Assembly (NCBI GenBank): GCA_040755755.1
Contig: JBFLZW010000033.1
Span: 165,010-229,009 of the forward strand
Direction of reading: 5' to 3'
DNA from: a bacterium
GTDB taxonomy: Bacteria; SZUA-182; DTGQ01
DNA: 64,000 bases
Position 1 is the first letter of the stretch. Every line of letters starts with the position of its first letter. Positions 6,882 to 51,527 of this stretch are shown here, piece after piece. The notes beneath the pieces are model-generated. The model made no database searches, had not been told where the DNA came from, and saw only the letters and a program-made list of their open reading frames with translations. The position numbers and the translations under genes were made by a program.

Positions 6882-7130
6882 GAATGGCACTTACATAAGA
6901 ATTAGTAATTCTCCCGCAGAGACGCTGAGACGCAGAGGATATCATTGAAAAGTAAAAGTAAAATAAGTTCCTCCTTGTGCCTTTTTACTTTTTGCTTGCT
7001 TCCAGGCCGTTGACACATCGATATATCCCGACTTTCATCAGGACCTTGCCGGATTGGTTGTTCTCTGCGTCTCTGCGTCTCTGCGGGAGATCTTTTTTCC
7101 CTGTGTGCTTTGTGTCCTCTCTATATTATA
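6882..7130 (+). mobile_element. MITE-like element, copy 1, right end deleted
   Basis: The sequence from GAATGGCACTTACATAAG onward is near-identical to the copies at 47906 and 51254 up to the CTATATTATA at 7121-7130. There the element stops, without its final ~20 bp (including the right terminal inverted repeat). It has no coding capacity. An internal inverted pair (TCTCCCGCAGAGACG near the left end, CTCTGCGGGAGA-like sequence near the right) gives it a folded-back structure. The base next to it (7131) is where homology to UDP-GlcNAc 2-epimerase begins, so one deletion probably removed both the element's right end and the first half of that gene. The bases left of the element, CGCTTAAGGA, would be its target site. 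Confidence 0.85.
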
Positions 7131-7131
7131 G

Positions 7132-7713
7132 ATTGACACGCTGCTGAGGCTTTTGCCAAAAGCGGATAATGAAGTAGTGCTGAATGAACTTGCCCTGAAT
7201 GGATCATCCTGTTGTCCTGGCTCTTATGCCCTGGTCACTCTGCATCGGCCCTCAAATGTTGATGAGCCTGATATGCTGGCTAATATCATGAAGACTCTTC
7301 AGGAGATCAGCCAGTCCCTTTTCGTCATTTTTCCAATTCATCCCCGAACTCAGCACAGGCTGCAGGGCCTGGGTATTACCATTGACAGTCCGCGTCTTAA
7401 ACTGATTGAGCCGATCGGCTATGTGCAGTTTTTGGCTTTGCAGCGGCAGGCACGGCTAGTTATTACCGACTCAGGAGGGATCCAGGAGGAGACAACTTTC
7501 CTTGGTGTACCTTGTCTGACAGTCAGGGAGAATACTGAGCGTCCGGTTACTATCACCATTGGCACAAACGTACTGGTAGGACAGAACATGAGCCGTCTTA
7601 AGGAGGAGGTGGAGAGAATTTTATCCGGGACAGGTAGAAAAGGTTCGGTGCCTCCACTGTGGGATGGCAAGGCGAGTGAGCGCATTGCCGCCATTGTCGA
7701 ACAATGGGCATGA
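7132..7713 (+). pseudogene. wecB: UDP-N-acetylglucosamine 2-epimerase, C-terminal half only
   Basis: The family interconverts UDP-GlcNAc and UDP-ManNAc and is normally ~360-380 residues. Here only the last ~194 codons exist, from IDTLLRLLPKA (the family's NTVIDALL segment) through VTLHRPSNVDEP, FPIHPRT, LIEPIGYVQFL, ITDSGGIQEE and CLTVRENTERPVT. The N-terminal domain is absent, including the catalytic and UDP-binding residues there. The in-frame codons run back to 7132, then hit a TAG at 7129 inside the truncated MITE. A TTG at 7153 could in principle start a 186-residue product, but it would not make a complete enzyme. The UDP-sugar dehydrogenase at 10176 would use the product of an intact epimerase. 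Confidence 0.85.
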
Positions 7714-7806
7714 TGACATTTTCAAGGATCCCGCTCATGCAGGCAGAAACACAGCTCCACAAATGATCGTTTTTACCTGCACCCAACGATACTCTTTCTG
7801 TCAAGC

Positions 7807-9867
7807 TCAATGAAGCCGTCTTTGCAGATATCTCAGGATAACGTTTTTGGGCCTGTCAGGTGGAATTGGTAATTTGTTTAATTCATCAATAAGGTTATCC
7901 TTGCATCCAAGAAAATCGATGCCCCCATTCCAGGGGACATAATCACTTTTTTCTAATTGATAAAAGGCTTGTTCTCCTTTATTGAGTAAATCCAATATTT
8001 TGAACTTTTCGGACCTGGCCGCATCCATTACATTTTCATTCAAATACTTATTAATATTATAGAGCCCGATTCTGACTTGAGCAAAGCACTGGCAAGCAGT
8101 ACTATTCGCTTTATGTGCTCCATAGAAATCTTTTGATTCGGCTGGTATTTTACTTTCCACGGTTTTGAGAATTTCCAATGCGCGATTTGCTTTTTCAAGT
8201 TGTTCCTGGCAGTATTCCCGGGTTAACCACGGTTGGGGATTTACCATGAGATAAGGGCTTAAATTAAAAGATACTACTTCTGCCATCTCATTTGAAGCAT
8301 TATCAAAAAGAATTTTGCAGGCACGGGGCAAAAAACCTTTATCGATTTCTTCTGGATTATCCGCTACCTGTTTCCAGAGTGGAGGGTTCTCTAAATTCAG
8401 TAAGTATTCACTCCCCGGAGCCTCAATATTCCAGGAATATTCTGCTGTACCCATGACCTGAATTTTTGACATTACCCTGTAGGCTGTATTCCAGTAAATG
8501 TTATCTTTGCCTTCAGCATAAAATGTTCTCGCAAACCTGAAGGAAGTAATATAAGGCCTCTGGATGTCCCAATCTTTTGGTTCAGTTGCATGGTATGCAA
8601 ATGATGGCTGCCTTATCATCCGGCACCAGCGGGAGATATCGTCCGCAGTACCTTCACGGACAACAAGAAAAACATCCTGGGGAATAAGCCGGGTCAATTT
8701 TCCCAGCCAATTGACAATATTGGGATAGCTTGAAGCAGTATATTTCGCCACATAAGGATAAACTACCGTTATGAAGAGAGTGTCCTGGGATGCTTTTTTA
8801 ATTTTATTATAAAATGTATTTATTACATGAGCATCAGCCAGTGCCCGATCTTCACCAAATCGTGTTCGGCATCTGTCACATTTTTTACTCCACAATTCCG
8901 GATCATTGACACCGCCACTATCAATGCAATGGAGATAAATTGCCTTAGCGCCAGTGTTTTGGATAAAATTGGAAAGATCATCTCCTTTTTTCGATAACAA
9001 CTCATCATTACTCCAACAGAAAAGCATTCCTCTATGACCGATCATTCCTGAATAAGGATAATAATACTGATTTGCCCCTTGGGGTACCGGAGCTTCCCCA
9101 ATATTCCACCAGCCGTCATACACTATCCGGATGCCCCGTTCCCATGCGTAGTCATTGATATTTTTAAACCATTCTTTATCGCTGGTCAAGGTATCATGAT
9201 TGTACGAAAAACCAGACCAGATCATATTGATTTTATGGCGCAAAGCAAAATCGATGGTTGCTTTTGCCTGAGCACGGCAAGCGATAATACTGTCTGCCGT
9301 CCGGTACGTAAAATCCGGCTTATCCCATATATCATACCTGGCAATACAGAGAGAATCGCCAGCCTTTTTGAGTAAGCTTCGGAGTGTGATGCAGCCATAC
9401 AAAGTGCCTTGATCACCTCCCCCGCCGATGAGAATCAATTGCTTGGTTCCACGAGTAAAAAACTTGATGACATAGCCCTGTTCACCCGGATCTTGATACT
9501 CGAGGTTATGAGAGTGGCAAAGCTCTTGAATCCAGGGTGATTTTAAATTACCTACAATTATTGAATTATCGCTTACTTCATTGATACTGGCGTATATTTT
9601 TTCTGGTAATGCCGCGCCTCCAAGTGACTTTACCTGAGCATTTACCTCTTCTATTCCTATTTGATGCTTTCTATTGGCAATATTTTCAACTACAAAAGCA
9701 GAAGCAGCCGTGACAGGTATCGATCCCGATAGTTCTGTAACCTTTTTCGGCAGTGGAATAAGCAACAAGTCATTTACCTGGGATTGAGCATGGGCAGGCT
9801 GAATTATTACGATGACAATAAGGATGACAATAGCCAGATGAGTTTTGGCGAGTAACGGTTTATCCAT
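7807..9867 (-). CDS. Exported glycoside hydrolase-like protein with GH20-type N-terminal domain
   Basis: A 686-residue protein with an N-terminal hydrophobic signal segment ending near AHAQSQ (residues ~10-30). Residues ~35-180 resemble the non-catalytic GH20b-type domain seen before hexosaminidase or alpha-glucuronidase barrels (LLIPLPKKV; EQGYVIKF; GGGGDQGTLYGCITLRSLL). The rest looks like a TIM-barrel hydrolase with many Trp/Tyr residues (VYDGWWNIGEAP; YLHCIDSGGVNDPELW), plus a Cys-rich patch (KKCDRCRTRF). It is probably exported to act on an amino-sugar or uronic-acid glycan. It lies opposite to the polysaccharide genes, so it is separately transcribed. The exact family and substrate are uncertain. 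Confidence 0.6.
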   Translation of the reverse strand: MDKPLLAKTHLAIVILIVIVIIQPAHAQSQVNDLLLIPLPKKVTELSGSIPVTAASAFVVENIANRKHQIGIEEVNAQVKSLGGAALPEKIYASINEVSDNSIIVGNLKSPWIQELCHSHNLEYQDPGEQGYVIKFFTRGTKQLILIGGGGDQGTLYGCITLRSLLKKAGDSLCIARYDIWDKPDFTYRTADSIIACRAQAKATIDFALRHKINMIWSGFSYNHDTLTSDKEWFKNINDYAWERGIRIVYDGWWNIGEAPVPQGANQYYYPYSGMIGHRGMLFCWSNDELLSKKGDDLSNFIQNTGAKAIYLHCIDSGGVNDPELWSKKCDRCRTRFGEDRALADAHVINTFYNKIKKASQDTLFITVVYPYVAKYTASSYPNIVNWLGKLTRLIPQDVFLVVREGTADDISRWCRMIRQPSFAYHATEPKDWDIQRPYITSFRFARTFYAEGKDNIYWNTAYRVMSKIQVMGTAEYSWNIEAPGSEYLLNLENPPLWKQVADNPEEIDKGFLPRACKILFDNASNEMAEVVSFNLSPYLMVNPQPWLTREYCQEQLEKANRALEILKTVESKIPAESKDFYGAHKANSTACQCFAQVRIGLYNINKYLNENVMDAARSEKFKILDLLNKGEQAFYQLEKSDYVPWNGGIDFLGCKDNLIDELNKLPIPPDRPKNVILRYLQRRLH

Positions 9868-9938
9868 ATAGCTGCGAATCTCTCTTAAAACCTGTTGTTA
9901 TGAATATTGAGGCTGCTTAATTTTAGAGACAAAGAGAT

Positions 9939-9983
9939 AAAGGCACAAGAGCCGAATTTGCGGCTTTCGTATTGAGTGCCTTT
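9939..9983. repeat. Nested inverted repeat in the intergenic region
   Basis: Outer arms AAAGGCAC (9939-9946) and GTGCCTTT (9976-9983) enclose inner arms GCCG (9951-9954) and CGGC (9961-9964). The symmetry and the AGAGACAAAGAG-like flank resemble other fold-back repeats in this window. No T-run follows, so a simple terminator is unlikely. The rest of 9868-10175 is AT-rich and holds the promoter region of the dehydrogenase; nothing else was recognised in it. Confidence 0.5.
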
Positions 9984-10175
9984 GTTCCTGATATAACGCT
10001 TCATTTTTTTATTCGGAAGATACATACCAATTCAACGACTGATGAACGACAACCGCTTATGGTACGAAGCCGCATTTGAGAGATCAATAAAATAAAATCA
10101 GGCATAAGATTAATATTTAATATTATTATATCCTAATATTAAATTCAAGGGAAATAAAATATCGAAAGGGGAAAT

Positions 10176-11480
10176 ATGCTACTTGAAAAAATTAAAAACA
10201 GAACAGCCCAGATAGGGATAATCGGCCTTGGCTATGTCGGTCTGCCCTTGGTCAGAGAGTTTTATCGAAGCGGCTTTTCAGTAACCGGCTTTGATGTGGA
10301 TCAGGCCAAGGTGGATATGCTTAGATCCGGAAGGAGTTATATCAGGCACATTCCTTCAGAAATGATCAGGGAAATGGTCACCGACGGACGATTTCAGGCC
10401 ACGACGGATTTTTCCCGATTAACCGGGCAGGATGCGATCATTATTTGTGTTCCAACTCCTCTCAACGTTAACCGGGAGCCTGATATGTTTTATGTCTTTG
10501 GTACAACCAGAACAATCGCCAGATATCTGAAGAAGGGGCAATTGATTGTTCTGGAAAGCACCACTTATCCGGGGACCACGGATGAAGATATGCGGGCCAT
10601 TCTGGAAAATACGGACCTTCATGCCGGATATGACTTTTATCTGGCCTTCTCCCCCGAACGGGAGGACCCGAATAATTCCAAATACTCGACCAGAACCATT
10701 CCCAAGGTCGTGGGAGGCTATACGCCGCAGTGCCTTGAGGTTGCCCTTGCCCTGTACAATTGCATCGTCGAGAGAACCATTCCGGTTTCCTCAACCAGGG
10801 TGGCCGAAGCGACAAAATTGCTCGAAAATATTTTCCGGGCGGTGAATATTGCCCTGGTCAATGAGATGAAGATGCTGTTTGACCGGATGGGGATAGATGT
10901 CTGGGAGGTCATCAATGCCGCGGCCACCAAGCCCTTTGGCTACACGCCCTTTTATCCGGGACCGGGTCTTGGGGGACACTGCATCCCGATCGATCCCTTT
11001 TATCTGACCTGGAAGGCACGGGAGTATGACTTCAATACCCGATTTATCGAGCTTGCCGGAGAAGTAAATACCGGAATGCCCTACTATGTCGTCCAAAAGA
11101 CCATGGATGCCCTGAATGAGCGTGGCAAAAGCCTGAAAGGGGCACGGGTGCTGGTTCTGGGGATTGCCTACAAAAAAGATGTTGACGACCCGCGGGAATC
11201 CCCATCCTTCAAGGTAATCGAGCTGTACCAGAGCAAGGGAGCTGTCGTGGACTACAACGACCCGTATGTTCCTGCACTTCCCCAAATGCGGCATCATGCC
11301 CTGAGCATGAAATCCGTTCCGCTCACCGAGCACACGGTCTCTTCCTATGATGCCGTGGTCATCGTGACCGACCATTCTGATTATGACTACAAGTGGCTGT
11401 ATTCCAGAGCCAATCTGATTATCGATACCAGAAACGCCATGGGCGTCTCGTTGAATGATGAAAAGGTTGTAAAAGCATAA
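10176..11480 (+). CDS. Nucleotide-sugar dehydrogenase (UDP-GlcNAc/UDP-ManNAc 6-dehydrogenase, WbpA/WecC-like)
   Basis: A 434-residue cytoplasmic enzyme that oxidises the C6 alcohol of a UDP-sugar to an acid using two NAD+. The NAD-binding motif is [10 protein letters not shown] (residues ~15-24). The catalytic Cys lies in [17 protein letters not shown] (near residue 265). The C-terminal UDP-binding domain contains [16 protein letters not shown]. The length and GGHCIPIDP form match the WbpA/WecC branch rather than UDP-glucose dehydrogenase. The start ATG follows AAAGGGG. It likely supplies a uronic-acid sugar for the exopolysaccharide. UDP-GlcNAc and UDP-ManNAc cannot be distinguished; the nearby epimerase remnant hints at ManNAc originally. 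Confidence 0.86.
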
Positions 11481-11496
11481 TAAAGGGGGAAAGTAT

Positions 11497-11520
11497 ATGG
11501 TTATGGTTATGGTTATGGTT
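11497..11520 (+). repeat. Four tandem ATGGTT hexanucleotides at a start codon
   Basis: ATGGTT occurs four times in a row, each unit giving an in-frame ATG, immediately before AAGACACTGG of the PEP-CTERM-like gene. A strong ribosome site (AAAGGGGGA, 11482-11490) precedes unit one. Gain or loss of units keeps the frame but changes the distance between ribosome site and the last ATG and the length of the signal-peptide n-region. Confidence 0.85.
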
Positions 11521-12168
11521 AAGACACTGGCTTTTTTGTGCATTTTATTATTGCTTGGAGGAGTGGTTGAAACAGCGAGGGCTGATTGCATTGAATTTTC
11601 TGAAATATTTTTAGGCACAGCCCATGACGCCGATTTTTTTAGCCTTGAACGAGGTTGGCGTGGAGAATTCCAGTTTGATTTAACAGCAGCCGGAAATCCG
11701 GCGAAATTGTATAACCAGAACGGTGAGGAATTAGTCTCGGTTCAGGCAGGCATAGATGAAGCGGGTTATAACATGAGCCTCTATAACCCTCCCTGCGAGG
11801 GAGAGTTGAGTTTTGTCTTTTCCGATAATGATCCCCAGCGTGAATTAATTACTATATACACCGGGCTGTACGATGGCAGCGACCTTGTTTATTCAATGGT
11901 ATACAACCTAGGCAGAAAGGGAGGAGCAAGGCAATATGCCCCACTGAGGATCGATTTGGCATCGGAAGGGCTGCTGGACTACCTGGCAGATGGTCAATTC
12001 GCATCTTTCGTAATTTGCCCGATAATTCCCGGTATAGAGGACAATGATATCCGAATCGACCAGGCTGCTTTAACCGTGAGCGCAACTCCCGTGCCGATAC
12101 CTTCTGCCTGTCTGCTGTTTTTTTCGGGGTTAATCGGACTGGCAGGGATCAGGAGGAAATTTGCTTAA
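11497..12168 (+). CDS. Exported PEP-CTERM-like surface protein
   Basis: A 223-residue protein with an N-terminal signal peptide (hydrophobic stretch LAFLCILLLLGG, probable cleavage after TARA). Its tripartite C-terminal sorting tail consists of VPIPS, the hydrophobic ACLLFFSGLIGLAGI and the basic RRKFA. The VPxP form instead of PEP is the variant used by some deltaproteobacterial exosortases and matches the EpsI-like gene at the window start. The middle region is a beta-rich extracellular domain of unknown function. It is predicted to be cut and transferred to the cell surface or matrix. It starts within an ATGGTT repeat, so the precise first Met is uncertain. Confidence 0.78.
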   Translation: MVMVMVMVKTLAFLCILLLLGGVVETARADCIEFSEIFLGTAHDADFFSLERGWRGEFQFDLTAAGNPAKLYNQNGEELVSVQAGIDEAGYNMSLYNPPCEGELSFVFSDNDPQRELITIYTGLYDGSDLVYSMVYNLGRKGGARQYAPLRIDLASEGLLDYLADGQFASFVICPIIPGIEDNDIRIDQAALTVSATPVPIPSACLLFFSGLIGLAGIRRKFA

Positions 12169-12176
12169 GTTTCCTG

Positions 12177-12500
12177 TCACGGCATATGCTGCTCAAGCTC
12201 GCTCAGTGCTTCTTTCAGCCTGTCTACATCCGCCTCGGCAGCAAGTCTGTTTTTATCGTTTTTGCAGCCAAGCTCCAGAGACTTGGCGATAGTTTGAATC
12301 TTCTCTATTCTGAGATTTCCCGCCATGCCTTTCAGAGCGTGGGCAGTTCTGGCTGCCTGATCGAAATCATCCAGGCTGATCGCCTTATGCAGCTCTTCGA
12401 TTGATTCTTTTACCTGGATAATGAGGTAGTCAAGAAGCTCATGGTAGGATGCCTTATCGATTCCAAGCTCTGCCAGAGTTTTTTGCTCATCTGGTTGCAT
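12177..12500 (-). CDS. HPt (histidine phosphotransfer) domain protein
   Basis: A 107-residue all-helical protein with the phosphotransfer signature TAHALKGMAGNL; His54 is the predicted phosphate-accepting residue. HPt proteins shuttle phosphate between receiver domains of hybrid kinases and response regulators. It is the last gene of a four-gene minus-strand cluster that contains a hybrid kinase with two receiver domains, which is a natural phosphate donor. It ends 8 bp from the stop of the convergent PEP-CTERM-like gene, with no room for a large terminator. Confidence 0.88.
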   Translation of the reverse strand: MQPDEQKTLAELGIDKASYHELLDYLIIQVKESIEELHKAISLDDFDQAARTAHALKGMAGNLRIEKIQTIAKSLELGCKNDKNRLAAEADVDRLKEALSELEQHMP

Positions 12501-12525
12501 GCTGCATTCTCCTCCTTCCGATTCG

Positions 12526-12555
12526 ATCCAATCTACTTTAACCCAATCTACTTCA
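12526..12555. repeat. 15-bp tandem duplication across the pstS-like stop codon
   Basis: ATCCAATCTACTTTA (12526-12540) is followed by ACCCAATCTACTTCA (12541-12555), 13 of 15 bases identical. It spans the end of the PstS-like gene and the start of the spacer to the HPt gene. Similar 15-bp tandem duplications occur at 58710 and 63466. Confidence 0.7.
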
Positions 12556-13591
12556 ATATAGGTTCACCATTATACGTAACCGATTTGATGTTCGCTTCGG
12601 CCTTGACTAAGGCAGCCTTGGGCAGCGTTGCATATTTCAGAGGTCCGGCATATTCCTGCCCCCCATGGATCATCCACCACAGCAGCTTCACGGTCCGGTC
12701 GGCCTGCTCCCGTGATCTTCCCTGGTAATTCTGCTCCTTATACAGGAGCAGCCAGGTAAAACTGCTGATCGGATACCCGTCAGGAGCGTCGGTGTCGGTG
12801 ATCGATACCCTGGTATCATCCGGTATGGCGATATTGGCAGCCAGGCTTGTTGACTGAAGACCCGCCTTGACGAACACTCCATGTTTATTTTGAACAGAAT
12901 CTACCGGCATACCATGCGCTAGGGCATAAGCCAATTCGACATAGCCGATACTCCCTAAAAACTGCTTCAGCAAACCGGCAACTCCGCCGTTTCCTTTGGC
13001 ACCCACTCCTGTCGGCCAGTCAACGGCTTTGCCTCTGCCAATCTTTTCTTTCCACTCCCGACTTACCTTTGACAGGTAATCGGTGAAGATAAAGGTAGTT
13101 CCGCTTTCCTCGGACCGATGCACCACGACGATATTGAGGGCCGGGAGTTTTACTCCAGGATTTATGGCCTGTATGGCGGGATCATCCCATCGGGTGATTT
13201 TCCCGATGAATATATCTGAAAGTAAAGCGGGAGTGAATTTCAGAGCAGGATTTCCCGGCAGGTTATGCGTTACCGAGACTGCACCCAGACATATGGGTAT
13301 ATGGAGGATATGGGAAGGGGTCTCCTTCATTTTCTCATCGCTGAGGAAGGCATCGGATGCTGCAAAGTCTACGTTTTGTTCAAAGAGATGCTTCTGCCCG
13401 GCACCCGATCCGACAGCCTGATAATTGATTCTGACCTGGAATTTTTGATAATATGCATCGAACATCTTTTCATAGAGAGGATGAGGGAAGGTTGCTCCTG
13501 CCCCGGCTAACTCCTGGCTTTGCGCTCCGGCCAACGGATATCCGCTGGTCAAAAGAGCTCCGAAAAGGAAAATCAGGAATATTCTTCTCAT
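12548..13591 (-). CDS. pstS: PstS-like periplasmic phosphate-binding protein (copy 1, in signalling operon)
   Basis: A 347-residue periplasmic binding protein with a signal peptide ([17 protein letters not shown]). PstS motifs: [26 protein letters not shown] and [10 protein letters not shown] near the N-terminus, and [18 protein letters not shown] in the middle. It binds inorganic phosphate for the Pst importer. I chose the ATG at 13591 because a GGAGG lies 7 bases upstream and the signal peptide begins there; an in-frame start at 13648 would add 19 residues. Its 5' part overlaps the 3' end of the hybrid kinase by ~120 bp. With no transporter subunits beside it and an HPt gene after it, a sensing role alongside the kinase is plausible (inference). 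Confidence 0.85.
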
Positions 13592-16397
13592 CTTTCGCCT
13601 CCAGTTTATCGGATTGAGACCTGCACACTTCGATAGTGGTGTATACACTGACCGGTTTTCCCCATCTGAGGATCTTTTCTTTCAACCGGTTTGGATTAAC
13701 CGGCTTTGACAGATAGTCATTCATCCCGGCAGCCAGGACTCTTTCCTTATCCTCTTTCATGGCATCGGCTGTCAGGGCAATAATGGGAAGTTCCCTGTTT
13801 CCGCTGTCACGGATTTCCCGGACAGCGGAAAGCCCATCCATAACAGGCATCTGGATATCCATCAAAACCAGGTTGTACTGATTTGCTTTTGCCTTTGCAA
13901 CGGCCTCCTGTCCATTCGATACTAAATCCACCTCACAGCCCCAATTTTTCAGTAATATCTCGATGAGTTTTTGATTAACGACAATGTCTTCAGCTACAAG
14001 AATCTTCAGGCCATTGAGAAGTGCATCATCGGGCTGGCCTTCAGGTGCCCCCTGAGTTCCCTGAGGTTTGATTCCCAGTGTTGTTTGCATAGTCCTGAGA
14101 AGGTCTGATCTCAGAATTGGCTTGGATAGATAGGCATCGAATCCTGATTCAGTGAGCTTCCTGACATTTTCCGATCCCACATCGGATGGCAGGGCAATAA
14201 GCTTTATGCCCTGGTATTTGTCTTGTTTTCGTATCCTTTTGGCAAGCTCATAACCATCCATATCCGGCATCATAATGTCGGAAAGAATGATATCAGGCAT
14301 TTCGGACTGGCTGGATAAATAGTCCAATGCCTCTCTGGCCGAAGATGTCCTGGCGGGAACTGTCATCCGGGCATCCCGGCAATACATTTCCAGGATGTAA
14401 CGGGAATGATCATTGTCATCAACAATAAGAACCCTTTTATCCTGAAGCTGCTCCAGGCAGGGTACCCCCTCGGCAGCATCAGGAGCACAGGCAGCTTCCT
14501 GAAGCTTGAGAGTGATGATAAATTCACTCCCTTTCCCTTCTTCCGAAATAAGCTGGATACTTCCTCCCATAAGTTCAACCAGAGCCTTGGCAATGGCCAG
14601 GCCCAGCCCGGTTCCTCCGTATCTTCTGGTAGTGGAAGAGTCAGCCTGGGTGAAAGGGCGAAAGATGAGCTGCTGCTTACCCTTGGAAATGCCGATGCCG
14701 GTATCTTTGACCGATAACCGCACGGTCTTTGTCCCCCCGGTCGTTGCAGCTTCACAACCTACCTCCAGCCCGATCTCACCCTTTGGGGTAAACTTTATGG
14801 CATTACTTAAAAGGTTTAATAATATCTGCCGTATCCGGGTTGGATCACCCCGAAGACCCTTCGGAGTGTTTTTTTCAACGTTGCAGTAAAGCTCCACGCT
14901 ATTGCCCTTCAGCATGGGTCTTACTATCTTTAGTACCTGCCTGATCAAAGCCTCCGGATCGAAATTTACATTTTCAAGCTCGATTTCTCCAGCCTCGATT
15001 TTGGAAATATCCAGAATATCATTGATAAGGCACAGGAGTACTTCCCCGCTTTTGCGGATCGTGTCTACATAATCCTTCTGTAAATCATCCAGTGAGGTAT
15101 TACTGAGGAGGTCGGAAAAACCGATAACCGCATTCATGGGAGTACGGATTTCATGGGACATATTGGCCAGAAATTCGCTTTTGGCCTGACTGGAAATTTC
15201 CGCTTTTTCCCTGGCGTGTTCAAGCTCCTCGGTTTTCATGTAATAGTAGCCCCCGGCCATGAAAATTAAACACAGGAGGACCAGTGCCATGAAAAGGTTT
15301 CTTGAGTGCTTTTTGATCGGTGCTGCGATTTCATCATAGTCCAGAGTGGCATCTATTGACCAGAAAGTATTGCCAACCATGACAGGAGCATAGGCTATTA
15401 ACTTTTTCGTAACCTGGCCGCTGCCTGCTTTTGAGCCGCTCAGAAGGGTCCTCCCCCTGAAAAAGCTCCCCAAAGGAGCAAGTAATCCCTTGCTTTTATT
15501 CTGACTTTCACCGGAGAGGTTCACCCCTCTTGGGTTGAGAGTGCTATAAATGCTCACTCCCTTCTCTCCCTGGCTCGCTTTTTGTATGAGGGTCCTTACC
15601 TCTGGCCAGTTGTCAGCCGGAACCATCTCTTCTCTCAAGGCCATAACATTTCTGCCAATGTATTCGGAATTGGGATGGCTGATGATCAGGCCGCGATCAT
15701 TAACGACTTCAACCGTGGTTTTTTCACGTCCCCTGGCCTGACTTACGAGATTATCGATTACGTAAACATAGATTACCGCCCGAAGCATGCCGATAAACTT
15801 TTCCCCTTCAAAAACAGGAAAACAAATAGAAAAGGACTGTATCCCTGCTTCTTCGGAAGACAGATTACTGATATGAGGCTGGTGCCTCTCCGCAACAAAT
15901 TTCACGTCCGGTTTTTGAGCATAATTATTACCAAGCTCACTTTTGACGTAAGGAGCTATATTCCTGACCGTTCCTTCAGCATCAAGCAGGTAAAGCACAC
16001 GGACCCATCCTCTAAAATTTATGAAAGTATACTCAAGGGGGGAATAATTATGCAGGGAAGGAGCGATATCTGTCAGGTTCTGTGAAACGCTCTTTTGAAT
16101 CGTGGGATTCAGAGACAGGATTTCCAGCTCATCCTGAATATGATTAACAATCGCCTGAAGTGCTTGTGCTTCTGATTGTGCAAGAGCCAACAGGTGATGC
16201 TGGGTTATTTCTATAATTGACCTTTCAAATTCTTCCGTGTCAGACTTGGCCAGATAGATGACACTGGCTATAACCGCAACCAAAGTAACGGCCATGGCCC
16301 GATATTTCCAGGTAGTTTTTTTATTCATCAGTGACTCTGCTCTCGAAGAGCAGTCCCGCTTACCAGGTTTTTCCAGTCTTCCACTTTCCTTCTTCAT
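13470..16397 (-). CDS. Hybrid sensor histidine kinase (dCache-HisKA-HATPase-REC-REC)
   Basis: A membrane sensor kinase of ~975 residues. A first transmembrane helix near residue 40, a large extracytoplasmic Cache-like sensor region (~60-370) and a second helix ([19 protein letters not shown]) are followed by the HisKA motif [19 protein letters not shown] carrying the phosphorylated His. The ATPase domain has [22 protein letters not shown] and GTGLGLAI. Two receiver domains follow (phospho-Asp in [11 protein letters not shown] and [11 protein letters not shown]). The start at 16397 gives a 4-bp ATGA overlap with the upstream gene; a TTG at 16409 is also open. The last ~40 codons overlap the pstS-like gene in another frame, and this tail is low in recognisable structure. 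Confidence 0.88.
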
Positions 16398-17893: not shown

Positions 17894-17997
17894 TCAGCCC
17901 TCCATAACGGTTGAGATTAGGCATCTTCTCCTTTTTTCATCGGTAGCCTTGCGGATGGACTTCAGAAGTCTTGCCGGAGAGCGATCTTCGGCCATCG

Positions 17998-18030
17998 TCT
18001 TATTAATTTCTAACACTCTTCTTATAAAAG
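17998..18030 (+). promoter_or_regulatory. Weak 11-bp-period direct repeats upstream of the 807-residue gene
   Basis: TCTTATTAATT, TCTAACACTCT and TCTTATAAAAG lie head to tail with an 11-bp period, 56 bp before the start codon. The pattern recalls the better repeats at 20975 and 25731 but is less conserved. Pho-box identity is only a suggestion. Confidence 0.25.
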
Positions 18031-18085
18031 CCCAACATTCATATGGAATAATATTGATGTAACCAACAATGGAGGTACGAATACT

Positions 18086-24991: not shown

Positions 24992-25730
24992 CCTTTGTCT
25001 CATCACAACTGCCGGAATCCGAAAAGCGATTCTCATTTGCAGGTACTATATAGAAAGAAAACGACAAAGACAAAGGACACCACAGAGACATAGAGACACA
25101 GAGGTACACAGAGGAAAACGGAGGGAGATAGAGAGGAACAGATGAACACAGAGAAAAGCAGAGAGCAAGGTATCTCCCGATTATTTCGGTACCCAAGACG
25201 GATTCTACCATTCACCCCTACCTAACCTGAATGGCTCTTACAGAAGCCAAGTCGGTACTCATCCCCTGCGGCGGCAGCCGCTTTGGATTGCGGTGGCACG
25301 ACACCGCTTTCCTGGGCGTGGATAGAGCAGGCATGTGATGCCCCAGGACAGGGGCAGTATTCCAGAATGTGCGGTATGCCGGTATGGCAGCATTGCCAGG
25401 ATGTCTCTCCTTCCTCTTGAGGAGCCAGGACGCCAATATATCCCCTCTCCCCCGTGGGGGCGAGGGAGAAAAACACTGCCTGGTGCTCAATGCTCTGGGC
25501 GGAAGTGGAGAAATTTCCCCATGAGAGCAGAAAAAGTAAAACTGTCCGCCCCTGAAACCCTTTGGGGGGAGAGGGCTAGGGTGAGGGGGGCGCGGTTGAG
25601 GCAAACCGGCCGGGTAATCCCCTGCTGTATTTACTGAGCAATAGAATCACTGCGTACTTCAGTGGTTAATTTCTGTAGCTTGCTCAACCGAAAACCGCTC
25701 CAGGATAAGGTCCATGTCCGCGCGATCAAT
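24992..25730. other. Long gene-free region with degenerate repeats
   Basis: No convincing gene is seen. The region contains a purine-biased stretch built from AGAGACACAGAGG-like units (25065-25160). It also has a single degenerate MITE terminus (25229-25251, GAATGGCTCTTACAGAAG) preceded by CTACCTAACCT, and GC-rich fold-back sequence (CTCCCCCGTGGGGGCGAGGGAG around 25445; GGGGGGAGAGGGCTAGGG around 25563). Frames through it have no recognisable protein character. Confidence 0.6.
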
Positions 25731-37459: not shown

Positions 37460-37699
37460 TTAATCCGGGCTATGATCAAAAATGACGACCTCACCTGCTG
37501 CGGGTGAGCGGTAAATAAGCTTTCTGGCCTTGCCATGTAAGGCATGGGCTACTTTGAGATAAAGCCAGATCGGTGCCTGGCCGGTAATCATGATCTCATT
37601 TCCCTCACCAGCCAGCGTCCTGGCCTTGTTGAGATACTCATCGAGCTCAGAAAGTTTGGCTGTAGTGGTGTAGAATGATGAAAGGTCGATCTCGATCAA
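37460..37699 (-). CDS. csx3: Csx3-type ring nuclease (Crn3-like)
   Basis: A 79-residue protein resembling Csx3: MITGQAPIWLYLKVAHALH in the middle and a C-terminal strand AAGEVVIFDHSPD. Csx3/Crn3 proteins bind and cleave cyclic tetra-adenylate and so shut down type III signalling. It overlaps the Card1-like gene by 4 bp (ATGA), so activator-driven nuclease and its off-switch are co-translated. The length is at the short end of the family and no AAA domain is fused. The following 330 bp to cas1 hold no gene, only the orphan repeat. Confidence 0.78.
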   Translation of the reverse strand: MIEIDLSSFYTTTAKLSELDEYLNKARTLAGEGNEIMITGQAPIWLYLKVAHALHGKARKLIYRSPAAGEVVIFDHSPD

Positions 37700-38859
37700 C
37701 TTATTTCTCCCTGGTGAATATTGAGTTTCTGAGCAATTATTTCTTTCAGTTGGCCAATCTCAGTAGGTGAGACAAGCCAGGTCTGAAATTGCTCCGACCG
37801 TGCCTGAATAGCTTCTCTTACCTTTCCATCCTTTAAAATGTATGGTGAGGTAGTCACGAAGAAGCTCTTTACTCTTAAGCCAAATTCCCTCTGCAAGGCA
37901 CCGATCTTGTAAAGGGCCTGGCTGGCATCTTCATCCTCGTCCTGGTCGAGGGATTTGCACTCTGCAAAGTAGAGAGCATTATCTTTGGTAAACATGACAT
38001 CGAATTCGTTCTCCCTACCCCGGCTGTTTCTGAGCTGAAGCCCGATCGCCACGTCATCAATGCCACAGCCAAGCCATTCTGAGATGATATTGAAACAATA
38101 TTCCTCAAGCCATCCCCCAGTCAGGTATCTGATATCTGAGCGGTCTAACTTTCTGGTAATAATCCCGCCGGAATAACTAAATCCAAACCGTGAAAAAAAA
38201 TCTTTTTCCTCCTGATTCTCTGCTGTAAAATTGCCGGTAAGCTCAAACATTTTTTCACTGCGATGAGGCCTCAACATACCGCATAACCAGAGCAGCAGAT
38301 TTTTAAGCTGAGCATAGTTTTGTACTATCAATTCGGATAAGCCTTTCCGCTTTCTGGCCTCCTGACAGTAAGTTTCCAATTTCCCCTCATTCACCACTTT
38401 CAGGCCATAGGCGGCCAGGTATTGAACGACACTCAACCGCAGATCAAATTCCGTAGGTCTGCCCGGACTTTTCTTCGGAAATGGCACGATAAATTCATTC
38501 CTTGGTATCGGCACATAGATCATCCTGCTGCTGTAATCCTTGAAAAATTCATAGGCCGCGATGGACATAATCTTTGTTCCGCCAGTCAGATTGACCACAA
38601 ATTCACTATCTTCCCTGCCTTTGATCCATTCTTCAAGCTGCCGGTGACAATCAAGGATTGAGTCTTCCTGGACCATAATCATATCACGCTGGTACTTTAG
38701 CCCCAGCCTGCTCATGGTATCCAGGATGGCTGAAGTTTTACCTTTGGCCTCCATATCCCTGGTTGAAATGAACAATAGCTCATCAGGCTTGAAATGATGG
38801 ATGGCCAGAATATTGGGAACGGTCTGCTCACTTACCAGAGAAATCAGGATAGTTTTCAT
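37696..38859 (-). CDS. Card1/Can2-type CARF nuclease (cyclic-oligoadenylate effector)
   Basis: A 387-residue effector. The N-terminal ~140 residues are a CARF domain (ILISLVSEQTVPNILAI; VVNLTGGTKIMSIAAYEF at 88-105) that senses cyclic oligoadenylate made by Cas10. The C-terminal domain is a PD-(D/E)xK nuclease of the DUF1887 type, with Asp287 in NEFDVMF and E-C-K at 300-302. Card1/Can2 enzymes nick DNA and/or cut RNA when bound to cA4. It lies 16 bp after csm5 and overlaps the Csx3-like gene. Confidence 0.88.
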   Translation of the reverse strand: MKTILISLVSEQTVPNILAIHHFKPDELLFISTRDMEAKGKTSAILDTMSRLGLKYQRDMIMVQEDSILDCHRQLEEWIKGREDSEFVVNLTGGTKIMSIAAYEFFKDYSSRMIYVPIPRNEFIVPFPKKSPGRPTEFDLRLSVVQYLAAYGLKVVNEGKLETYCQEARKRKGLSELIVQNYAQLKNLLLWLCGMLRPHRSEKMFELTGNFTAENQEEKDFFSRFGFSYSGGIITRKLDRSDIRYLTGGWLEEYCFNIISEWLGCGIDDVAIGLQLRNSRGRENEFDVMFTKDNALYFAECKSLDQDEDEDASQALYKIGALQREFGLRVKSFFVTTSPYILKDGKVREAIQARSEQFQTWLVSPTEIGQLKEIIAQKLNIHQGEIS

Positions 38860-42041: not shown

Positions 42042-42057
42042 TTTTACTTCCTTTCAT

Positions 42058-45044: not shown

Positions 45045-45323
45045 ATTTTCCCCTCATTACCTTACAACAAAATTTATGATGAATTTTCAGCTTTTAATCA
45101 TACAACCTCACCCTAAAAATTTCATCTCCGGCAACGTTGCCGATGCCACTGCTGATGCCAAGGTCATGCATGGCAGTGCAGATGTTCCCTATCTTGTAGA
45201 GAAGCATCCACTCCACTTCTCCCCCTTGAGGGAGAGGCAGGGTGGGGGTGATGGTTATGATCACCTTTCCGCTCGAGAAAAGGAAAATGGGGAACATCTG
45301 ATGGCAGTGTTTACCCTCTGACA

Positions 45324-46505
45324 TTACTCCAATATCCGTATCCGTCTCTTATCCAGAGCTATGCCGTATTTGGTATCCGGCTTACGGCCGACAGACGATA
45401 TCTCAAGGGTGGGTAAAGTGTAGAGGCCAAATCTCTGGCTGATCTTTTTCTTGATCTTGGCCTTATACTGGTTGAAAGTTTCAGCATCCAGCTTGCCAAT
45501 GCCGCCGATATCACCAATACTGTCAATATTGCCACGGCAGATATCGTCTTGAGTAAGGCTTTTGTCCATGTTTTTCAAGGGAAGGTCACTTCCGGTTATA
45601 CGAAGATACAGTTCGGTTATCTTTCTCTGGTCCGAAAAAACATCCTGGACGGTCAAAAAGCACTCCTGGCAGGACTGACAGGAAGGTTTCTCCTGCGAGC
45701 AGTCTCTTTTTTGCATGGCAAAGAAGGTATAGAGCGTTAAAAGAGAGGGTGATAGGTCAAGTTCCATTCCCTTAAAGGTCAGTTTCTTCTCAAGGATATT
45801 TATGGTTAAGGCGGGCTTTTTCTCCCGTACCAGGGAGAGCATCAAGGTTGCAGGGTCATGAGGCGTTCCCAGCCATTCATGAGATAATCTGTCACGAATT
45901 GATACAAAAGGCATGTGGATGAGGTTAACCCGTGCATAGCTTGTTTTCTTTGAATACGGCTCACCCTTTTGGTCCTTTAACTCAATCTCCACAGGCACTG
46001 GCGGGGGATAGAAGAATCCGCGATTGCTTTCAAATCCCGGTGATACCAGGACATGGTAAATTCTGTCCTGCGGTCTCCCATAAAGTTGAGCAGCCAGAGT
46101 CAGGCAAGAGCTCATGGTCTTTCGGCCACCGGCAACAAGGAAGAAAACAGCCGTTTCCGGATCCGAGGTCAGGGAAAAAGTAAGATCGAGACACTTCCTG
46201 AGAAGACACTCATTATCATCCTCATCAATAATGTCATCTATCTGCCGCCCATCCTCATCGGTGATCACGTGGACATGATCCGCCCCAAAATCGATTTGTC
46301 CCGCATCCTTGCCGTAATCCCGCAGATATTGATAATATTGGCCATCCGCAGGTGATAAAAGATGGGCATTGATCATATCCTTGCCATCTCTGGTGGTAAT
46401 AACTTGAATGGCATCAACCCGCCGTCCCTCCTGATGCAGAGCGTAGAGAGCTTCAGTAATCACCTGAGGGCTGAGGCCGCAGACAGCCAGCAAGATATAC
46501 TTCAT
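45324..46505 (-). CDS. CARF-family protein of the NE0113 type
   Basis: A 393-residue protein of the NE0113 CRISPR-associated family. The CARF-like N-terminus has ILLAVCGLSPQVITEALYAL and VAGGRKTMSSCLTLAAQLYG, a ligand-binding loop like that of cyclic-oligoadenylate sensors. The C-terminal ~170 residues look like a winged-helix region (LSPSLLTLYTFFAMQ; KKKISQRFGLY), with a Cys cluster (CSQEKPSCQSCQEC). An R-x4-H sequence (RDRLSH, ~208) recalls the HEPN RNase signature but is not in a clear HEPN domain. It may be a sensor, regulator, ring nuclease or RNase. It overlaps cas6 by 4 bp. Confidence 0.75.
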   Translation of the reverse strand: MKYILLAVCGLSPQVITEALYALHQEGRRVDAIQVITTRDGKDMINAHLLSPADGQYYQYLRDYGKDAGQIDFGADHVHVITDEDGRQIDDIIDEDDNECLLRKCLDLTFSLTSDPETAVFFLVAGGRKTMSSCLTLAAQLYGRPQDRIYHVLVSPGFESNRGFFYPPPVPVEIELKDQKGEPYSKKTSYARVNLIHMPFVSIRDRLSHEWLGTPHDPATLMLSLVREKKPALTINILEKKLTFKGMELDLSPSLLTLYTFFAMQKRDCSQEKPSCQSCQECFLTVQDVFSDQRKITELYLRITGSDLPLKNMDKSLTQDDICRGNIDSIGDIGGIGKLDAETFNQYKAKIKKKISQRFGLYTLPTLEISSVGRKPDTKYGIALDKRRIRILE

Positions 46506-47473
46506 CCTGCCTCCACGACGATCTGTCCCAGTCCGAACGTGCTCTGCTTGCCAAGATGAACCTCTTCGCAGAGACGAAGTAAAGGCAAAAATTCTCCTAA
46601 ATTACCCGTATAGCTGATGCTGCCAACTATACCACCCATGAGCATCTTCACTTCCTGGCGGTTGGAGTAACGCTCCCAATCGAACCAGTGAAGATCAGAC
46701 GCCTGTATCTTTATGCTCTGGTCCTGGGCTCTTGCCACCAGGCCTGTATAGTCCAGAGCAGGCTGCCCCTCCCCATAGCAGGCAAAGAGAGATGATATCC
46801 TGCGTAAAGCAGCCCTGATCAGGATATGGAATGGCAAATCAGCCTTCAGGTGGTTTTCATGCTTTAATCGCAGCGGCGTCTTGAGGTGGATGGTCAGGCG
46901 GTTAATCTCTCCCTGTGGCTCTTGTCCCTGCTGTCCTTGCCGCCCCTGTCCTTGCGGCTCTGGTATCTTGAGCTCGGTAGTGAAATCATCTCTGCTCAGC
47001 CTTTGATCCTGGCTGGAATAGATAACCTTCCCATGAGCTGAAACGGTCTTGAGAATGAATCCCGCCCTTTTCCCGTTTATGTATCTTCCAATGCCAATCT
47101 GTCCCATTTGATCGAAGGCATAGATACAGTAGGGAAGATAATCGTTTGCCTGACCAAAAAGGAGAAGATTGAAGTCAAAGCTATCACCTGGCTTGAAATG
47201 CTCCTGGAGAGTCAGCGGTGGCTCGATGACAAAGGGGTGAGGCGGGGATGGAAGATTCACGCCACTTTTTGTGCAGCCTTCTTTCTTCTCGAAAAAGAAA
47301 GAATATACACAACGGCTGTTCAACAGACAACTCTGGCAATCCTGCCTCTCAAGGGCACAGACCACCCGCTTTAAAGCAGTACCAAAGGCCCCGCGGAAAG
47401 TTGATCCCTTGAATGGAGGGAGAATGGCCTCGGCATTTAACTCACTGGTAAAGGTAAGGCGACTATAGAGCAT
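46502..47473 (-). CDS. cas6: Cas6 pre-crRNA processing endoribonuclease
   Basis: A ~323-residue RAMP-family RNase that cuts repeat RNA. Family features: LPPFKGSTFRGAFGTALKR near the N-terminus, a four-Cys cluster (CALERQDCQSCLLNSRC) that is common in type III Cas6 proteins and may bind zinc, and a C-terminal G-loop (LGKQSTFGLGQIVVE). The ATG at 47473 matches the family N-terminus (MLYSRLTF) and has AAAGGG upstream; the frame extends to 47632. A Gln/Gly-rich patch (QGQGRQGQQGQEPQG, ~175) is a low-complexity insertion. First gene of the cas cluster. Confidence 0.87.
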   Translation of the reverse strand: MLYSRLTFTSELNAEAILPPFKGSTFRGAFGTALKRVVCALERQDCQSCLLNSRCVYSFFFEKKEGCTKSGVNLPSPPHPFVIEPPLTLQEHFKPGDSFDFNLLLFGQANDYLPYCIYAFDQMGQIGIGRYINGKRAGFILKTVSAHGKVIYSSQDQRLSRDDFTTELKIPEPQGQGRQGQQGQEPQGEINRLTIHLKTPLRLKHENHLKADLPFHILIRAALRRISSLFACYGEGQPALDYTGLVARAQDQSIKIQASDLHWFDWERYSNRQEVKMLMGGIVGSISYTGNLGEFLPLLRLCEEVHLGKQSTFGLGQIVVEAG

Positions 47474-47905
47474 TCCATTGCCCTTTCCATATGTTCTGGT
47501 ATTCTGGGTGCTTATTTTGTTATCCTGTATTGCAGTATAATTAACGCCTAACGCCTGATATGGAGCCTGTGCAGGTAAGGAGAAATCTTTGCATTGCCCG
47601 TTTCTCCTGTTATAAGAGCAGGAAATAGACAAAATTCCATCATTATAGAAATATTAATACAAAGTTGATTTACAAGCAAGAAATATGTTTCAAGAAGAGA
47701 ATATATTCTTATAGCCAAGGCTGGACCATTACATACTGACAGGTTGCTGACTGATCAGAATCGAGAACAATCGGCAAGTATTTCAAGGCTTCATCCAATC
47801 CTTGGGAGAGGAGTGGAAAAGCGGCTCTTTCAGGCCAACAGCCGCGTGTTCAACCCCCCAGATGCAAAGACTGACTCTCTCACTATGGACTATTTCCCCT
47901 AAACC
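47474..47905. other. Gene-free region upstream of the cas operon
   Basis: An AT-rich segment (47640-47720) immediately before cas6 is the likely site of the cas promoter on the minus strand. No gene, hairpin or repeat was recognised between 47720 and 47895. The last ten bases (47896-47905, CCCCTAAACC) are the left target duplication of the MITE that follows. Confidence 0.5.
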
Positions 47906-48172
47906 GAATGGCACTTACATAAGAATTAGTAATTCTCCCGCAGAGACGCTGAGACGCAGAGGATATCATTGAAAAGTAAAAGTAAAACAAGTTCCTCCTT
48001 GTGCCTTTTTACTTTTTGCTTGCTTCCAGGCCGTTGACACATCGATATATCCCGACTTTCATCAGGACCTTGCCGGATTGGTTGTTCTCTGCGTCTTCTG
48101 CGGGAGATCTTTTTTCCCTGTGTGCTTTGTGTCCTCTCTATATTATAAGCTTGGCTTATGTAAGTGCCATTC
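47906..48172 (+). mobile_element. MITE-like element, copy 2, complete, with 10-bp target duplication
   Basis: A 267-bp element with 18-bp terminal inverted repeats GAATGGCACTTACATAAG and CTTATGTAAGTGCCATTC. It is flanked by perfect 10-bp direct repeats CCCCTAAACC (47896-47905 and 48173-48182). It has no coding capacity. Subterminal inverted sequences (TCTCCCGCAGAGACG and its complement) make it largely fold-back. It is ~95% like copy 1 over the shared part, with a 7-bp loss near the right subterminal repeat. The right target copy contains the TAG stop of the Tat-exported protein gene. Confidence 0.92.
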
Positions 48173-48175
48173 CCC

Positions 48176-49336
48176 CTAAACCGGCAGATGCAGCCTCCTG
48201 ATAAGCTCGATTCTCTCCTCTCTGGTCAACTTTTTCTTTGGCTGCGGCTGAGGGCGAGGTTTTGTAGCCTCCAGTTTCGATTCCTTATACTCTGCCAAAG
48301 GGACAGCCCGCTTGCCAAGACCGGCTTGATAGCCGGGTGTATTGTTGAACTCTTCGGCAATCAGGAAGATATTGACGATGATGTCGCTGACTCCGCCATG
48401 AAATTTGCTGTGCGACTGATTGACATAGTCGGCAATGGCTTTTTCATACGGTGTGTTGTCAGGGTTATAGTAGGAGATGAGCCAGCAGAAGCCCCGGAAT
48501 TCGAAGTGAGGCGTCAGATAGGGCAGCCCTTCAAAAAATGTCTGGGTTCCATCCGTATTGAAAAGCGACATATAAGTAAGGGTGGCTGCCGGATTGGCAA
48601 TGATATTCTGAAAGGTATGGGTTTCGGTAAAGCCAAGCTGTCTGGCGGGGTCCTGGGCATTAATGGGCCGTCCGGTATACAGCTCAAGGGTGGCAAACCG
48701 GGTTTTGTCCCAGAGCTCTTTTTCCTGATAAAGCTGCCGCTTGATCTTAAAGACATCCATAGGGATATTTCCTGTCTTGTAGACCTTGTCAAGCTCATTG
48801 TTCACCCGCTGGATGTTTTCCGGTTTGGGGACGATGGTGAAACCTTTGGCTGTGGTGTTGAGATGGAAATCACTGTCGCCCCGGCCACCAAACTTTTTCC
48901 CGTAGGTTGAAATCATGGGATGATGATGGCCGCCATTCGGAATGTTCATCCCCTCGGTTTCACCTTCAACAAAGGCGATAAGCCGATCAAAATACCAGAT
49001 TTTCTCGGCCAGCCACCAATCGTGAAAATCAGCATCGAATTCCCTGACAGGGTATCGAGCCCATATTCCATCGATCCGGGCTATGACGATTCTTTTATCA
49101 TTGACCAGGTCTGTCCGGATGTTTTTGGGAACGAAATATTTATTGCCATTTTCATCGGTTTTCCAATCCACTGCCGAGCTGTCGAATATTTCTTCTCCAC
49201 TCGCTTTCCCCCATTTGGCCAGGAGCGGCCCCCCCATGCTGAGTAATCCCAGCCCTGCCGAAGAAAGTCCGAATGCCTTCAGAAAAGAACGCCGTTTAAT
49301 TCCCTGCTCCGTGCAAATTTCCCCGAGACTTTTCAT
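48176..49336 (-). CDS. Tat-exported protein of unknown function
   Basis: A 386-residue protein with a twin-arginine signal (KRRSFLKAFGLSSAGLGLLS, residues ~14-33), so it is folded, and probably cofactor-bound, before export. I do not recognise the mature domain. It has several His/Asp-rich patches (NGGHHHPMIS; GGRGDSDFHLN; FDADFHDWW) that could bind metal. The C-terminus is Pro/Lys-rich (PRPQPQPKKK) and ends in LIRRLHLPV. The stop codon lies inside the target duplication of MITE copy 2, so the insertion left the protein intact. Confidence 0.72.
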   Translation of the reverse strand: MKSLGEICTEQGIKRRSFLKAFGLSSAGLGLLSMGGPLLAKWGKASGEEIFDSSAVDWKTDENGNKYFVPKNIRTDLVNDKRIVIARIDGIWARYPVREFDADFHDWWLAEKIWYFDRLIAFVEGETEGMNIPNGGHHHPMISTYGKKFGGRGDSDFHLNTTAKGFTIVPKPENIQRVNNELDKVYKTGNIPMDVFKIKRQLYQEKELWDKTRFATLELYTGRPINAQDPARQLGFTETHTFQNIIANPAATLTYMSLFNTDGTQTFFEGLPYLTPHFEFRGFCWLISYYNPDNTPYEKAIADYVNQSHSKFHGGVSDIIVNIFLIAEEFNNTPGYQAGLGKRAVPLAEYKESKLEATKPRPQPQPKKKLTREERIELIRRLHLPV

Positions 49337-49548
49337 CCTGCCCTCCCCTCTCTCTTTTTGGCTCCTTTCGCCAATACCCCGTACTTTGAGCTTCAGGAAT
49401 CAAAATGTGCATGTTTTTTTACCGGATATTCCGCCTGTAGTATGACAATTCGGGTTAAATGAGAATTTTCCTGTAAAAAGAGAATCCTTTTTGATAAGGT
49501 AAGATTTGCTTCCTGTTGTTGCCGAACTTATTGCAGGAGCGAAAATAG

Positions 49549-49947
49549 ATGACCGAGAGATTCCAAATCTACAAGTGCGGGCTGTGTGAAAATATCGTGG
49601 AAATAACCCACGCAGGTACCGGTGAGCTTGTCTGCTGCAGCCAGCCGATGAACCTTTGCCTGGAGCACAGGAGAAACGAAGATGAGCGGGCAAACCATAC
49701 TCCGGTACTTGAGCGGACCGGTCAGGGTCTCATGGTCAGGGTTGGAACCAACGAACACCCTATGGAGCCAAGACATTACATTGAGTGGATTGAAGTTATT
49801 GATGAAAAAAGTGCCTGCCGCCGGTTTTTGAGGCCGGGAGATGCCCCCGCCGCTCTGTTCGATACCAGCACAACTCCGCAGAGGATCAGAGAGTATTGCA
49901 GCCAGCATGGTCTGTGGAGAGGATATATGATCATGAACAGCAGATGA
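49549..49947 (+). CDS. dfx: Desulfoferrodoxin (superoxide reductase)
   Basis: A 132-residue two-domain iron protein. The N-terminal desulforedoxin-like centre has Cys10, Cys13, Cys29 and Cys30. The catalytic superoxide reductase centre has His50, His70, His76, Cys117 and His120, all in the expected spacing (NHTPV, EHPMEPRHYIEW, YCSQHGLW). It reduces superoxide to peroxide in anaerobes. AGGAGC precedes the ATG. Residue Glu47 is present but the usual Lys next to the first His is replaced (RANHTP instead of EKHVP), so substrate guidance may differ slightly. Confidence 0.93.
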   Translation: MTERFQIYKCGLCENIVEITHAGTGELVCCSQPMNLCLEHRRNEDERANHTPVLERTGQGLMVRVGTNEHPMEPRHYIEWIEVIDEKSACRRFLRPGDAPAALFDTSTTPQRIREYCSQHGLWRGYMIMNSR

Positions 49948-50066
49948 TGAGCAGTGGTCAGTGGTCAGAAAAAAACTGAAAAATCCTAACTGATTACTGA
50001 CTACTGATAGCTTCTTTTGAGCATTCACAGTATAATATTAAGGAAAGAATTGAATTTGGTTGTATT

Positions 50067-51041
50067 ATGACCCATGACTTAAAGAATCAAATGAAAGAAC
50101 ATATCAACTTAGGCATCAGCACCTGCCTTCTGGGAGAAAATGTCCGCTATGATGGCGGGCATAAGTTAAACCATTACTTGAAGGATGTTGTCGGACAGTT
50201 TGTCAATTGGATTCCTGTCTGTCCCGAGGTCGAGTGTGGACTCCCCGTTCCCAGGGAGGCGATGCACCTTTCCGGGGACCCCCGATCGCCACGTCTGGTC
50301 ACGGTAAGGAGCGGCATCGATCACACGGCACGAATGCTCGAATGGTCGAAGAAAAAGCTCGATCAGCTTGAAAAACTCGATCTTTGCGGATTTGTGTTCA
50401 AGAGTAACTCCCCAAGCTCCGGGATGCGGGACATTTTCGTCTATGGCAGTTCCGGAGTGCCGGTAACAAAAGGGCCGGGTATTTTTGCCAGACAATTCAT
50501 GGACCGGTTCCCCCTGATCCCGGTCGAGGACGAAGGCAGACTGAATGATGCGGAATTGAGGGAGAATTTTATTGAGCGGGTCTTTGTGTTCAAGCGGTGG
50601 AAAGACCTTACCAGGAATAACGTTACTATCGGGGGGCTGGTTTCCTTTCATACGGCTCATAAGTTGCTTATTATGTCTCATAGTGTCAAGTACTTGAATG
50701 AGCTTGGAAAACTTGTGGCCCAGGCCGAATCAGATGACCTCAAAAAAGTTTTCGATCATTATTTTCTCATCCTCATGACCGCCCTGAAACTGAAAGCCAC
50801 TGTCAGAAAGAATGTCAATGTCCTGCACCATATTATGGGCTATTTCAAAAAGAGACTCTCATCCGGCGAGAAGCAGGAGCTTCTTGAAGTGATTGAGAGC
50901 TATCATCACGGTCTCATGCCTCTTATCGTACCCATTGTCCTCTTAAAGCATTACGTCAGGAAATTTGACGAACCCTACCTGAAGCATCAGTATTATCTGA
51001 ATCCCTACCCCATTGAGCTCATGCTGAGAAACCATGTATAG
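50067..51041 (+). CDS. DUF523/DUF1722 protein
   Basis: A 324-residue cytoplasmic protein. The N-terminal DUF523 domain has GISTCLLGENVRYDGGHK, PVCPEVECGLPVPREAM and GFVFKSNSPSSG, with conserved Cys residues. The C-terminal DUF1722 (YbgA-like) domain ends with the typical YYLNPYPIELMLRNHV. This fusion is common in bacteria; its function is not settled. It shows the family length and no damage. A possible gene remnant overlaps its 3' end in another frame. Confidence 0.88.
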   Translation: MTHDLKNQMKEHINLGISTCLLGENVRYDGGHKLNHYLKDVVGQFVNWIPVCPEVECGLPVPREAMHLSGDPRSPRLVTVRSGIDHTARMLEWSKKKLDQLEKLDLCGFVFKSNSPSSGMRDIFVYGSSGVPVTKGPGIFARQFMDRFPLIPVEDEGRLNDAELRENFIERVFVFKRWKDLTRNNVTIGGLVSFHTAHKLLIMSHSVKYLNELGKLVAQAESDDLKKVFDHYFLILMTALKLKATVRKNVNVLHHIMGYFKKRLSSGEKQELLEVIESYHHGLMPLIVPIVLLKHYVRKFDEPYLKHQYYLNPYPIELMLRNHV

Positions 51042-51250
51042 GCGCTTACAGCCCACACAATGAAAATTTTGTTCAAACTTTGGTGCAAAGCGGCGGAGCG
51101 GGACATCATTGCATCCTATCTTGTCGCTTTGCAGAGATGCTGGGAAATAAGGACCGCACCGCTCTTGACAGGCTGATTGAAAAGAGCGATGCATTATTAC
51201 AACCTGAGTATATGGCCCGCCACGATTTCTGGCTGATGTATCCCTCTTAA
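51017..51250 (+). pseudogene. Possible gene remnant ending at the MITE insertion
   Basis: In the frame that ends at TAA 51248-51250, 77 codons are open. The last ~40 (RFAEMLGNKDRTALDRLIEK, then SDALL and ARHDFWLMYPS) have ordinary protein character. No good start or ribosome site is seen; an ATG at 51137 would give 37 residues. Its stop lies in the left 10-bp target copy of MITE copy 3. It may be the tail of a lost gene. No family was recognised. Confidence 0.28.
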
Positions 51251-51253
51251 CCT

Positions 51254-51527
51254 GAATGGCACTTACATAAGCCAAGCTTATAATATAGAGAGAACACAAA
51301 GCACACAGGGAAAAAAGATCTCCCGCAGAGACGCAGAGACGCAGAGAACAACCAATCCGGCAAGGTCCTGATGAAAGTCGGGATATATCGATGTGTCAAC
51401 GGCCTGGAAGCAAGCAAAAAGTAAAAAGGCACAAGGAGGAACTTGTTTTACTTTTACTTTTCAATGATATCCTCTGCGTCTCAGCGTCTCTGCGGGAGAA
51501 TTACTAATTCTTATGTAAGTGCCATTC
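51254..51527 (-). mobile_element. MITE-like element, copy 3, complete, inverted, with 10-bp target duplication
   Basis: A 274-bp element in the opposite orientation to copies 1 and 2. It has ends GAATGGCACTTACATAAG and CTTATGTAAGTGCCATTC and perfect 10-bp flanks CTCTTAACCT (51244-51253 and 51528-51537). It keeps the full subterminal inverted repeat that is shortened in copy 2. No coding capacity. The target contains TTAA, which supplies the stop codon of the cytochrome gene on the minus strand. Confidence 0.93.

Follow-up and report, generated by a model that had tools for sequence, protein, structure and literature searches.

A gene-less miniature element family with IS4-subgroup ends and about 50 insertions in a bacterial draft genome

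Three copies of a short gene-less repeat in the window, the 64,000-nucleotide stretch of contig C33 analyzed here, are a sample of about 50 insertions of one MITE family in the same genome (G000, a 5.26-Mb draft of 88 contigs). An IS4-subgroup transposase, presumably since lost or left unassembled in G000, very likely moved this family. The transposase would recognize the terminal repeat GAATGGCACTTACATAAG, and the excised element would be inserted at cuts staggered by 10 bp about a YTAR core, leaving 10-bp direct repeats; this cut-and-paste chemistry is presumed from knowledge of the transposase family. The copies have common ends, 10-bp duplications, and a shared target core, one empty site exists, and transposase-bearing IS4 elements elsewhere have almost identical ends. 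Sequence comparison supports this mechanism well, with movement in trans by a candidate IS4 transposase as a predicted step.

The initial annotation described the three copies as gene-less, with shared ends and fold-back subterminal repeats, and their coordinates, ends, and ORF content were all confirmed. The exact 18-bp end has five matches in the window (0.02 expected at up to three mismatches). Copy 1 (6882–7130, plus strand) retains about 249 of 274 bp. Its last 25 bp are absent, which leaves only the left end and hence one flank, the target sequence CGCTTAAGGA at 6872–6881 with the YTAR core TTAA; the right duplicate went with the deleted right end. Copy 2 (47906–48172, plus strand, 267 bp) belongs to a subtype lacking one 7-bp unit, shares its exact sequence with elements on contigs C1, C35, and C74, and lies between two exact copies of CCCCTAAACC (47896–47905 and 48173–48182). 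Copy 3 (51254–51527, minus strand, 274 bp) has the opposite orientation to the other two and lies between two exact copies of CTCTTAACCT (51244–51253 and 51528–51537), so the perfect but differing 10-bp flanks reported for copies 2 and 3 hold. The fold-back repeats are also real. Copy 3 forms a long imperfect hairpin with the internal arm CTCCCGCAGAGACGCAGAGACGCAGAGA at 51319–51346 and the opposite arm at 51472–51499, and its DNA fold has an energy of −60.8 kcal/mol, whereas shuffled sequences average −25.6 (z = −10.9). Only short or edge-crossing ORFs occur within the window copies, and an RNA-family search gave no match inside the element.

Across G000, the 18-mer is found at 134 places at up to three mismatches, compared with six for a reversed control. 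Ends of this type (A-type) comprise 46 left and 43 right ends, equivalent to about 50 insertions. A-type elements measure 263–275 bp, have perfect 18-bp ends, and carry no gene. Identity among the compared copies ranges from 91.7 to 100% (mean 97.3%) and includes 11 identical pairs, so at least part of the family’s spread looks recent on sequence identity. The flanks collected genome-wide all differ, and there is no longer segment in common, which argues against the segmental duplication that the initial annotation had named as a possible refutation. The elements are thus short, non-coding, and multi-copy with different flanks, and they have terminal inverted repeats and target-site duplications, the features by which MITEs are classified. 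Many contigs end about 126 bp inside the element, as the draft assembly breaks at identical repeats. The exact 18-bp end is absent from all eight other genomes of the phylum that were examined; the proposed end search therefore yielded many further copies in this genome and none in relatives. This distribution suggests that the family was probably acquired by transfer or expanded solely in G000.

True transposition of a non-autonomous family, as first proposed, is borne out by the insertion sites. Among 28 A copies with both ends, 22 have a perfect 10-bp duplication, one matches at 9 of 10 bp, and five have none. Copies without target duplications, which had been listed as contrary evidence, are thus a minority, and recombination between copies or misassembly can account for them. 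When left and right ends are paired by their outer 10-mer, 32 pairs are obtained, compared with 0.24 for column-shuffled 10-mers. Ten of the 32 pairs join contigs broken within the element; exact 10-mers can therefore bridge the contig gaps that the repeat creates. A filled site on contig C14 has the element between two copies of AAACTAAATG, while the start of contig C35 has a single AAACTAAATG, no element, and 118 bp of downstream sequence identical to C14. This filled/empty pair may reflect either a second copy of the repeat or a strain variant. With 89 ends and 32 exact duplications, the family provides a large natural dataset from which the IS4 subgroup's rules for ends and targets can be worked out.

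The outer 10-mer has a YTAR core at 82 of 95 ends and a central TA at 93 of 95. YTAR contains a TAA or TAG triplet on both strands. Copies 2 and 3 sit exactly in stop codons: the right duplicate of copy 2 holds the stop codon of ORF 48176–49336 (minus strand) and that of copy 3 the stop codon of ORF 51531–52064 (minus strand), and the duplication keeps both stops intact. Dedicated targeting of stop codons was considered and rejected. Across the family, stop codons are only modestly overrepresented (6 of 94 ends versus 2.2% of background YTAR sites; the p-value of 0.018 depends on a selected cut-off and on ends that are not independent). Purging of insertions from genes can explain this excess, which may thus reflect selection. 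Most insertions within open frames sit ahead of the probable start or close to the frame end.

The initial annotation knew of no named family with these ends. They fit a described IS subgroup, and a repeat without a name is now tied to a defined IS4-subgroup end. Members of the IS4 subgroup have the end signature -AATR--------WTW---- and direct repeats of 10–13 bp (De Palmenaer et al., 2008; PMC2266710). GAATGGCACTTACATAAG matches all defined signature positions (GAATG at 1–5, ATA at 14–16), and the 10-bp MITE duplication lies inside the subgroup range. In addition, four complete elements combine the same or closely related ends with an IS4-type transposase. A pattern search found a 1,509-bp IS in genome G065 with GAATGGCACTTACTTAAG at both ends and an 11-bp duplication, GGGTCAGATCC. 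Its 475-aa transposase scores 220.8 bits against the IS4-family model NF033592 (cut-off 115) and 69.7 bits against PF01609, and its stretch YRDRWHVELDLRNIK conforms to the Y(2)R(3)E(6)K motif (Y-RD-R-WHV-E-LDLRNI-K). A plasmid IS of Acidovorax carolinensis has GAATGGCACTTACTTAAG as its left end, and its 10-bp duplication, GTATTAAGGC, again contains a YTAR core. A plasmid IS of Pseudomonas veronii has related ends with one mismatch and no duplication, and one of Piscirickettsia salmonis has a diverged end, TAATGGCACTACCTTAAG, and a 10-bp duplication, GTATATAGTG. The MITE differs from these known elements in having ACATAAG in place of ACTTAAG, and it has its ends, but not its interior, in common with the ISs seen. 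Together, the near-identical ends on complete IS4 elements, the published signature, and the duplication length (PMC2266710) bear out the early guess of an IS4-type transposase, and by sequence the MITE ends belong to the described subgroup.

The family is classed as non-autonomous, with ends of the IS4 subgroup, rather than as an IS4 element. Although the end signature and the 10–13-bp duplications are alike, IS4-subgroup members span 1,400–1,650 bp and encode a transposase, whereas the MITE is gene-less and lacks both this body and the DDE/YREK transposase gene; the G065 element has both. Non-autonomous elements derived from IS231, such as MIC231 and other mobile insertion cassettes, are reportedly moved in trans by an IS4-family transposase. 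Unlike the MITE, they belong to the IS231 subgroup, have CAT- ends, and carry passenger genes. The Chunjie MITE of Geobacter uraniireducens (PMC10969869) is likewise short and non-coding, with tens of full and partial copies that are mostly intergenic; it is 178–235 bp long, and the comparison covers size, coding content, copy number, and location. A 165-bp element in genome G234 (L181, 1354–1518) resembles the MITE in its ends, GAATGGCAYTTACTTAAG, and has an 11-bp duplication, AGACCTGACCC, but its interior beyond the ends and its target are different. The target of the G065 IS, GGGTCAGATCC, resembles the AGACCTGACCC target of this 165-bp element. No mention of the end sequence was found in the literature searched. 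The MITE family is new, while its kind, an IS4-type passenger element, is already known and fairly ordinary.

The full-length partner expected elsewhere in the genome was not found in the assembly by profile searches or with the G065 transposase as query, which had no match in G000. In G000, PF01609 detects five fragments; NF033592 detects three, and two of these coincide in place with PF01609 fragments. None is an intact DDE_Tnp_1 transposase. An insertion sequence combining such ends with a transposase gene, the check first suggested, is therefore known from G065 and from plasmids and is missing from the MITE’s own assembly, leaving about 50 fairly recent insertions in a genome without a visible intact driver. 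The partner search covers a draft assembly in which repeats of this sort interrupt the contigs, so a multi-copy partner IS may have gone unassembled. Several other candidates were rejected. Full-length IS4 transposases of the phylum relatives G002, G005, and G006 have no such ends around them. Two matches to the MITE interior in genome contigs lie inside genes and are chance, and a single end in genome G274 lies within an ORF and is probably chance. Viral contigs gave 18 single matches to a 16-base pattern, about the chance number by a rough estimate, and none to a longer pattern. A nucleotide search of plasmids and phages gave no match.

An alternative is that the elements were moved by another transposase family that happens to resemble this one in its ends and its 10-bp duplication; an IS5-like DDE enzyme now left in pieces would be an example. 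On contig C41, an IS5_3-like DDE fragment (37678–38001) and one GAATGGCACTTACCGAAG end are indeed 6 bp apart. This end is a solo variant beside a broken gene, the four complete elements with these or closely related ends encode IS4-type transposases, and the signature and the duplication length each agree with the IS4 subgroup, which makes a mover of another family improbable. Spread of REP-like hairpins or segmental repeats through recombination is more improbable still. Its appeal lies in the MITE arms, which resemble a free-standing CGCAGAGACGCAGAG hairpin in other genomes without IS4-type ends, but the sharp common ends, the differing flanks, the 32 end pairs with exact 10-bp duplications, and the empty site all speak against recombination.

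Movement by an IS4-subgroup transposase, the preferred explanation, has a variant in which the family is an orphan relic whose IS4-type driver is lost and whose movement has ceased. The assembly without an intact transposase and the degraded state of the other end families (B and C types) favor the relic; the 11 identical copy pairs and perfect duplications point to recent movement, and a multi-copy IS could have dropped out of an assembly whose contigs break at identical copies. On balance, the relic is possible but somewhat doubtful.

Besides the A-type family, G000 has B-type (about 145 bp), C-type (175–180 bp), and further elements; several of these end families, the B and C types, are degraded. 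The part common to the A, B, C, and other types is GAATGGCACTTAC plus a few bases (about 13–15 terminal bases). On contig C35, a 295-bp composite (L106, 1221–1515) consists of an A-type element, which supplies the left end, and a further 30 bp that close with a B-type right end; a perfect 10-bp duplication, GCTTTAGCCT, flanks the entire composite. The duplication suggests that one transposase used both end types, and from this one composite, a single transposase probably served several families. A tentative but quite possible extension is that one IS4-subgroup transposase, now absent, mobilized several unrelated miniature families, including the A/B composite, and that its YTAR target core directs insertions toward stop codons and intergenic DNA, which would let the genome tolerate a large load.

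The internal MITE arms, CGCAGAGACGCAGAG, match short hairpins that occur in other genomes, both inside and outside the class, and that have no IS4-type ends; the fold-back may accordingly be a separate repeat captured between IS4-type ends. Loci L213–L218 in genomes G005, G008, and G032 have hairpins of the form TTCACCGCAGAGACGCAGAG...CTCTGCGTCTCTGCGGTGAAA, some one-armed, that lack IS4-type ends and resemble the MITE arms.

Other arrangements were also seen. In the window, a degenerate single B-type end, GAATGGCTCTTACAGAAG (25229–25246, plus strand), adjoins a CACAGAG-rich stretch and a target-like flank, ACCTAACCT; its second end was not seen. On contig C87 (81223–81507; L053, 1501–1785), an A copy with its 10-bp duplication is followed directly after the second duplicate by a lone end of the same type. 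Finally, a longer related element type of more than 300 bp is cut by the ends of contigs C27, C55, and C21 (L127, L137, and L123).
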